Shown: piece by piece, positions 37,775 through 38,719 of the stretch
Position numbering within the stretch: position 1 is the first letter of the stretch
Layout: every line of letters begins with the position of its first letter
Origin: a virus
DNA length: 64,000 nucleotides
Reading direction: 5' to 3' (one strand)
IMG/VR virus record: IMGVR_UViG_3300031787_006401
Location: 49,433-113,432 of that record
Made by a program: the position numbers and the translations under genes
Notes under the pieces: generated by a model
Told to the model about the DNA's origin: nothing
What the model saw: the letters and a program-made list of their open reading frames with translations, nothing else
Databases searched by the model: none

Positions 37775-38200
37775 ATGCAATGGATATATCAAGGACAAAT
37801 CATAGACACTCTTCCAGAAGATTGTATTGGGTTTGTCTATGAGATTACAAATCTACTCTCAGGACGCAAATATATAGGCAAGAAACTAGCAAAGTTCACA
37901 AAAACAAAGTACAAAGTAGTAAAACTCAAGAACGGCACCAAGAAAAAACAAAAAATTAAAGAAAAAATCGATTCAGATTGGCAAACTTACTACGGATCTA
38001 ACGATAAACTCAATCAAGATGTACAAGAACTAGGCACAGAGAATTTTAAAAGAGAAATACTTTATTATTGCAAATCCAAGGCAGAGTGTAGTTACGTTGA
38101 AGCAAGAGAACAATTTGCTCGACAGGTTTTAGAATCAACAGATTACTACAACGGTCAGATCAGTGTTCGTGTTCACGGTTCGCACATTTTAAAATCATAA
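37775..38200 (+). CDS. GIY-YIG-type endonuclease-like protein (141 aa)
   Basis: The N-terminal half has the GIY-YIG pattern as FVYEITNLLSGRKYIGKKL (residues about 17-35), and a later Glu in SYVEAREQF (residues about 110-120) is in the place of the catalytic acid. A Lys-rich insertion (KLKNGTKKKQKIKEK) separates the two, followed by WQTYYGS. Proteins of this type in T4-like phages are annotated as Seg-like or resolvase-like nucleases. It is short, without a separate DNA-recognition domain, so it may be a small nickase or structure-specific nuclease rather than a homing enzyme. Immediately downstream is the apparent structured RNA region, and the two may be connected. Confidence 0.7.
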   Translation: MQWIYQGQIIDTLPEDCIGFVYEITNLLSGRKYIGKKLAKFTKTKYKVVKLKNGTKKKQKIKEKIDSDWQTYYGSNDKLNQDVQELGTENFKREILYYCKSKAECSYVEAREQFARQVLESTDYYNGQISVRVHGSHILKS

Positions 38201-38660
38201 TAGGCAAAGCATACAGCACACAAGGTCGGCGGGCCAGTTCGTAATACCGCTGTGGAAAAATCGGTTTGATACCCGAACACGTAACATATTGATTGTGGCG
38301 AACCCTAACAGTTGATATAGAATGCTTGCTGTCATTCAAAAACACCGCTGCTCCTAAAAACCGTAATCACTGGAACGAGGATACGGGTAGAAAAATAGTT
38401 TCTACACTATAAAACAAAATTATAGGTTATAAACTATATTTCGATGTCGACGCAGGTAGGGAAAAGGTCAGAGTCCCTGGAGTTGGTGTATAAACAAAAA
38501 ACCTGCTTCCAATGTCTTGGCTGGTGATACTCACAGAAAGTTTTCAAGACGACGGGACCGTAACAGGTTCCGTCTGACCAGATTAATCTACAGAAAATTT
38601 ATACACTTCGTGCTTATATAATTAAAAAAAAGATTATGTATTGAGCGTAAGCGAAGATAC
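38201..38660 (+). ncRNA. Candidate structured RNA between the GIY-YIG gene and the Pro-rich protein
   Basis: No credible ORF spans these 460 bases, but complementary segments are dense. Examples: a 9-bp stem 38551-38559 with 38566-38574 (6-nt loop); 38486-38494 with 38598-38606 (9 bp); 38452-38457 with 38501-38506, crossing the previous pair (pseudoknot); nested 38395-38401 with 38431-38437 and 38407-38412 with 38420-38425; 38361-38365 with 38382-38386; and 38177-38186 with 38295-38304 (one bulge), the first arm lying in the GIY-YIG gene. No CCA end, standard T-arm or tmRNA tag was found, so the class is open. The strand is assumed from the neighbours. Boundaries are approximate. Confidence 0.45.
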
Positions 38661-38678
38661 AGATGAACGCAGTTCATC
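38660..38678 (+). other. Perfect 8-bp hairpin upstream of the Pro-rich gene
   Basis: AGATGAAC, a 3-nt loop GCA, then GTTCATCT. No T-run follows, so it is not a standard terminator; it may mark the 3' end of the structured RNA or a processing site. Confidence 0.5.
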
Positions 38679-38685
38679 TTGCTAT

Positions 38686-38693
38686 GATAAATA
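38686..38693 (+). promoter_or_regulatory. Late promoter motif GATAAATA
   Basis: GATAAATA about 27 bases before the ATG of the Pro-rich protein and just after the 38660-38678 hairpin. Confidence 0.5.
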
Positions 38694-38719
38694 AAATAAA
38701 TCATTTAGGATCTAATAAA

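Follow-up and report, generated by a model that had tools for sequence, protein, structure and literature searches.

The interval that follows a GIY-YIG gene in the analysed window (a stretch of 64,000 nucleotides from an IMG/VR virus record of 113,432 bases) contains a structured noncoding RNA on the plus strand, with its core at 38212-38601, a conclusion that we regard as practically certain. This molecule, which occurs in uncultured T4-like phages by the hundreds, is best classed as a new type in a modular RNA family of which the Rfam entry RF01718 (Polynucleobacter-1) would be one fragment. We propose, with a probability of roughly 60%, that the RNAs of this family combine an exchangeable 5' domain with a constant 3' module, and that they act as a scaffold showing two repeats to one partner in trans.

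The genes flanking the gap are those of a T4-like phage. Upstream, the order is late sigma factor, the SbcD/SbcC-like gp47/gp46, a 90-aa protein and a GIY-YIG protein of 141 aa, whose phrog_447 match spans nearly its whole length and whose stop codon lies at 38200; downstream, a small gene is followed by those of the baseplate hub and the portal. The small protein (38663-39262, plus strand), located 3' of a late-promoter-like box, was without PHROG match and displays a glycine/proline-rich tail with GNPPPPSGG repeats. Regarding annotation, the GIY-YIG core protein (phrog_447) is often named 'NAD synthetase' in phage records (e.g., MW015081.1, GU071101.1), apparently a propagated naming error. 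Elsewhere in the window, a freshwater-2 RNA (Rfam RF02980, 56.8 bits) was recognized at 50242-50314 on the plus strand, with a late-promoter-like box GATAAATA at 50223, just 5' of it; a further copy of this RNA was found at locus L202 (1396-1474, minus strand). In agreement with the preliminary description of this DNA, no plausible gene was found in the gap, which extends from 38201 to approximately 38720, the next gene being located 3' of it. Accommodating a coding gene there was attempted and rejected, as no frame is conserved; the longest stop-free run in any frame ranged from 43 to 127 aa.

Dense structure had been noticed in this gap, and its single-sequence fold is indeed moderately unusual (z = -2.76, 1 of 100 shuffles being equally good); the comparative evidence is far stronger. 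The first relatives, fetched through the GIY-YIG protein, yielded window-type RNAs in a handful of lineages, and a search with a short invariant pattern added approximately 100 homologues; 64 distinct sequences were aligned after removal of duplicates. In this alignment, from which the structure model was itself derived, the 84 proposed pairs (17 helices) are formed in 96.5% of cells, with two-sided changes at 47 of the 84 pairs and a total of 582 two-sided compensatory cells versus 144 in shuffled data; sliding the partners by 1-3 columns left only 24-69 two-sided cells. Furthermore, the same structure was obtained with RNAalifold and, separately, from a plain covariation ranking blind to folding, in which the nested pairs and three pseudoknots rank at the top. 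Chance folding or intergenic junk was ruled out because of this covariation. Read on the plus strand, 8.3% of all cells are G-U versus 0.8% A-C, and therefore the plus strand corresponds to the functional molecule.

Compensating changes and recurrence of the pairs in relatives had been put forward as tests of an RNA at this site, and both favour it, albeit with crossing pairs that differ from those first listed. The pairing 38452-38457/38501-38506 is conserved as helix P9 (Table 1), as is a 9-bp stem with a 6-nt loop, taken here as P11. Crossing pairings were rightly anticipated, but the listed partners that would create them were not confirmed: 38486-38494/38598-38606, which matches perfectly over 9 bp in the window, pairs at comparable homologous columns in only 27-68% of relatives, its 3' arm TATACAC being present in 2 of 68, and the first arms of 38177-38186/38295-38304 and 38204-38212/38322-38329 fall outside the conserved RNA, where relatives have unrelated sequence. 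The covarying pseudoknots (PK1 to PK3) use other partners. No pairing arm lies inside the GIY-YIG coding sequence; the RNA core begins at about 38212. The extent first given, 38177-38719, does enclose a structured RNA, but its core spans from ~38212 to ~38601, with a small hairpin that probably comes next and reaches ~38612, and the end at 38719 takes in two separate hairpins and the late-promoter-like box of the next gene.

Table 1. Features of the type B RNA and its surroundings (window coordinates; percentages refer to alignment cells in which the pairs are formed, and two-sided to compensatory changes of both partners).
Feature	Position	Strand	Remarks
Upstream GIY-YIG domain gene	37775-38200	+	phrog_447; linked to the RNA, outside it
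Core of the noncoding RNA, 390 nt	38212-38601	+	Type B 5' domain and 3' module; 64-homologue alignment, pair counts, G-U excess
PK1, ACAGCA/UGCUGU	38213-38218 with hairpin loop 38327-38332	+	100%; 3/6 pairs two-sided
Closing helix P1	38223-38227/38585-38589	+	97.5%; one pair two-sided, weaker support
P2	38229-38232/38247-38250	+	Invariant
P3	38251-38254/38278-38281	+	Pair counts in 64-homologue alignment
P3a	38261-38264/38273-38276	+	Pair counts in 64-homologue alignment
P4, ten base pairs	38286-38295/38309-38318	+	95%; 6/10 pairs two-sided
Hairpin P5, loop forms PK1	38320-38324/38333-38337	+	100%; 4/5 pairs two-sided
PK2, crosses P9	38350-38354/38479-38483	+	91%; 5/5 pairs two-sided
Hairpin P6	38361-38365 and 38367 with 38382-38386 and 38380	+	96%; 6/6 two-sided
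A+T-rich lineage-specific insert	38389-38440	+	Gap in most alignment rows
P8, GUC/GAC	38446-38448/38576-38578	+	95%; two-sided changes: 0
PK3, crosses P9 and P10	38449-38451/38467-38469	+	99.5%; 3/3 pairs two-sided
P9, encloses P10	38452-38457/38501-38506	+	97%
P10	38459-38462/38474-38477	+	95%
Repeat R1 (ACTCACAGAAA)	38529-38539	+	Concerted evolution with R2
Hairpin P11, between R1 and R2	38550-38559/38566-38575	+	96%
Repeat R2 (ATCTACAGAAA)	38586-38596	+	Concerted evolution with R1
Small CUUCG hairpin 3' of R2	38604-38612	+	Type B conserves cUUcg; the type A consensus reads gcUucgc
Two covarying hairpins	38638-38641/38657-38660, 38661-38668/38672-38679	+	Also in type A loci
T4-late-promoter-like box GATAAATA of next gene	38686-38693	+	Outside the RNA; consensus match only

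The closing helix P1 joins the 5' end of the RNA to the flank of R2, the 5' part of this repeat constituting its 3' arm. P2, P3 and P3a make up a first stack, in which P2 never varies, so that covariation speaks neither for nor against it. Most relatives harbor a subdomain of ~60 nt inside P4 that is absent from the window RNA, and the P6 loop, GGAACGA, is invariant. The 3' module is arranged as R1, hairpin P11, UGAC and R2, followed by the small CUUCG hairpin, which likely lies near the 3' end of the RNA. Two additional hairpins (38638-38679) lie past the RNA and just ahead of the late-promoter-like box at 38686; they may form the 3' end of the transcript, or else an element of their own. The loop at 38232-38248, GCCAG-UU(U/C)-GUAAUA, is nearly invariant and resembles both ends of the 530 loop of 16S rRNA, possibly by chance; Rfam gave no rRNA match for it. 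In 21 of the 64 type B RNAs, the terminal loop of P9 carries GUGUAUA (38486-38494 in the window), a late-promoter-box-like sequence that these RNAs contain at no other place and that lacks a conserved pairing partner.

No Rfam family was assigned to the window RNA at the gathering threshold, and nothing convincing was found in the gap at E up to 10. The size and the pseudoknots of the molecule would suit a self-splicing intron, a ribozyme or a tmRNA, and an intron-like element or tmRNA relative had been contemplated at the outset; such an identity is extremely improbable, as Rfam gave no match to such elements, group I and group II introns included, ARAGORN detected neither tRNA nor tmRNA in the window and 11 relatives, and the RNA sits between complete genes, with no interrupted gene at the site.

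At the same site, most relatives carry a second RNA of ~400 nt (type A), the first ~140 nt of which correspond to RF01718. This Rfam family was recognized at 34 of 36 loci other than type B (16/16 in a first set and 18/20 in a second), and at none of 14 type B loci; within the window RNA, it gave no match at the gathering score or at E up to 10. The type A RNA runs ~230 nt past the Rfam model, a part in which it has covarying helices and candidate pseudoknots of its own, and the window RNA shares with the RF01718-bearing RNAs both the genomic site, directly after the GIY-YIG gene, and this 3' extension. The 5' domain of the window RNA is of another type, and its full length is ~400 nt versus the 141 of the Rfam model. 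Types A and B present their 3' modules in a common order (repeat, hairpin, UGAC, repeat), and when the type A module, cast as a covariance model, was searched for on both strands of 377 kb from 39 type B sources, 37 matches resulted, 35 of them being the type B 3' modules themselves (35 of 39 sources) and 2 lying elsewhere. The argument for homology comes from the coincidence of the match positions, the E-values being individually modest or weak (1e-4 to 3); in the reciprocal direction, the type B model finds the type A module of locus L045 at E 0.007. Shared ancestry of the two 3' modules is very probable. Most helices of the A and B 5' domains cannot be superposed, and no locus was found with both types.

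Scans with the 3' module reached at least 229 further contigs, each of the two forms of the module being present in at least 120 contigs. Among the matches listed, 221 of 222 further modules with enough upstream sequence are preceded by an A or a B 5' domain. Loci L376 and L414 display a third 5' domain type on the same 3' module, keeping part of the type A central sequence; L376 (495-1000) and L414 (module at 8208, strand as read) share UGGGCUCUGUGAAAAAGAUACAACCCAUG. The distribution of types on a GIY-YIG tree requires 24 changes versus a shuffled mean of 78, so that type follows the tree in part; these 24 constitute an upper bound on RNA swaps, given the shortness of the protein and the weakness of the tree. 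RF01718 appears to cover no more than the 5' domain in a single variant. The entry originated as a table entry in a survey (Genome Biol 2010; PMC2864571), the only publication found to name it, and further papers could exist.

The two repeats of the 3' module evolve in concert. In the window they read CTCACAGAAA and TCTACAGAAA; both are CACATGAA-like in most relatives, and both are GCATGAA, CATAAT, CATAAA or ATCATCAA elsewhere. On a tree built without the R1/R2 columns, 20 changes were counted in R1 and 21 in R2, 17 being the identical change on the same branch; at the three varying core positions, this was the case for 12 of 12 changes. Type A RNAs display the same coupling. An internal complement as the cause was rejected, as the RNA holds no consistent 6-mer complement to the repeats; extra copies elsewhere in the window were found at chance level only. 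Given that the repeats keep identity rather than complementarity, and that an internal complement is missing, the simplest reading, which these changes suggest, is that one partner reads both R1 and R2. The repeats could alternatively constitute two intramolecular non-canonical receptors, or sites of a processing enzyme, and we give about even odds to a trans-acting RNA with one partner at both repeats.

Sponge RNAs of the CsrB/RsmZ type carry one short motif, in GGA hairpin repeats, several times in a single RNA. The window RNA resembles them in repeating the same short motif, for a presumed single partner, but it lacks GGA hairpin repeats, and its two copies are held in a fixed pseudoknotted frame and drift in concert. 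As an ornate phage RNA it is comparable to GOLLD and ROOL in outline, and the class first suggested for it fits as an analogy; it is not a member by the Rfam tests, since neither covariance model gave a match at E up to 10. GOLLD is reported to combine a constant 3' part with a variable 5' part, and ROOL, present in phages and prophages, is likewise large and pseudoknotted, its function not being known (PMC12286853). The former arrangement is also seen in the family described here, a common trait rather than proof of kinship, and the latter description likewise applies, as the window RNA is large, pseudoknotted and phage-derived; in contrast, it is about half the length of GOLLD and lies outside a tRNA cluster, and ROOL measures ~660 nt and is often found near tRNA islands. 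An RNA-only assembly (homo-oligomer or cage) of the GOLLD/ROOL kind, with R1 and R2 as equivalent contacts of neighbouring subunits, would agree with this general architecture, and paired identical sites would fit pseudo-symmetric contacts; nevertheless, we consider it quite unlikely, because of the missing Rfam matches, the lack of an internal complement for the repeats, the absence of nearby tRNAs and the shorter length.

At 310 of the 311 loci, the RNA is located 3' of the GIY-YIG gene, locus L091 having the reverse order, and in many loci it begins within a few bases of the upstream stop codon, without a late promoter of its own there. Both observations would be expected of a structured cis-acting 3' UTR that ends and protects the gp55-gp47-gp46-GIY-YIG transcript, with the repeats as RNase or regulator sites. 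This explanation is unlikely, although less so than the others weighed here, for different ORFs intervene between the GIY-YIG gene and the RNA in some loci, and those RNAs, a minority, that are surrounded by other, unrelated genes without an adjacent GIY-YIG gene keep their structure, some with a late-promoter-like box of their own; moreover, three pseudoknots and ~400 nt exceed the complexity that stabilising hairpins require. In four of the RNAs without an adjacent GIY-YIG gene, a late-promoter-like [TG]ATAA[AG]TA occurs 48-58 nt upstream (background, 0.03 per 200 nt). No late promoter was seen just upstream of the window RNA, which may therefore be part of the gp55-gp47-gp46-GIY transcript. 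These promoter positions suggest that the RNA is made late, perhaps from its own promoter in those four loci and by read-through in the window lineage; we infer its transcription as an RNA gene, possibly a late one.

The near-universal adjacency also raises the GIY-YIG protein as a candidate partner, its endonuclease domain binding the RNA at both repeats, and the protein is small, the phrog_447 match covering nearly all of it. This would constitute a ribonucleoprotein of the RNA and the upstream nuclease docked at both repeats, the place or time of whose action would be set by the 5' domain, and, if true, an RNA-associated GIY-YIG nuclease. We regard both the partnership and the particle as very improbable: many isolated phages encode the protein but lack the RNA next to its gene, the type B covariance model found nothing convincing elsewhere in six isolated-phage records, some RNAs have no such gene in their vicinity, and RNA type and GIY-YIG tree, the latter from a short protein, disagree in up to ~24 places. 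Isolated phages in the annotated collection gave no meaningful nucleotide match to the RNA, no exact match to a 20-mer was found in bacterial genomes, and the 113-kb record holds no second copy.

Returning to the proposed modular scaffold, the 5' domain is exchangeable (type B here, type A in most relatives, and rarely the third type), and the 3' module of R1, hairpin, UGAC and R2 is constant. The RNA would fold into a compact pseudoknotted scaffold, closed by pairing of its 5' end with the R2 flank, and would thereby present two copies of the same ~7-nt sequence. A single trans partner (an RNA, or a protein of the phage or of its host), whose existence we infer from the repeats, would recognise both copies, so that the RNA could capture or organise it during infection; the exchangeable 5' domain may set specificity or stability.

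To our knowledge, very few large structured phage RNAs have been described, none with a settled function. Taken together, our results show that a gap without annotation and a 141-nt Rfam entry hitherto standing alone belong to a single modular RNA family, widespread among T4-like phages, in which the changing in step of R1 and R2 provides a direct and testable handle on the putative partner.
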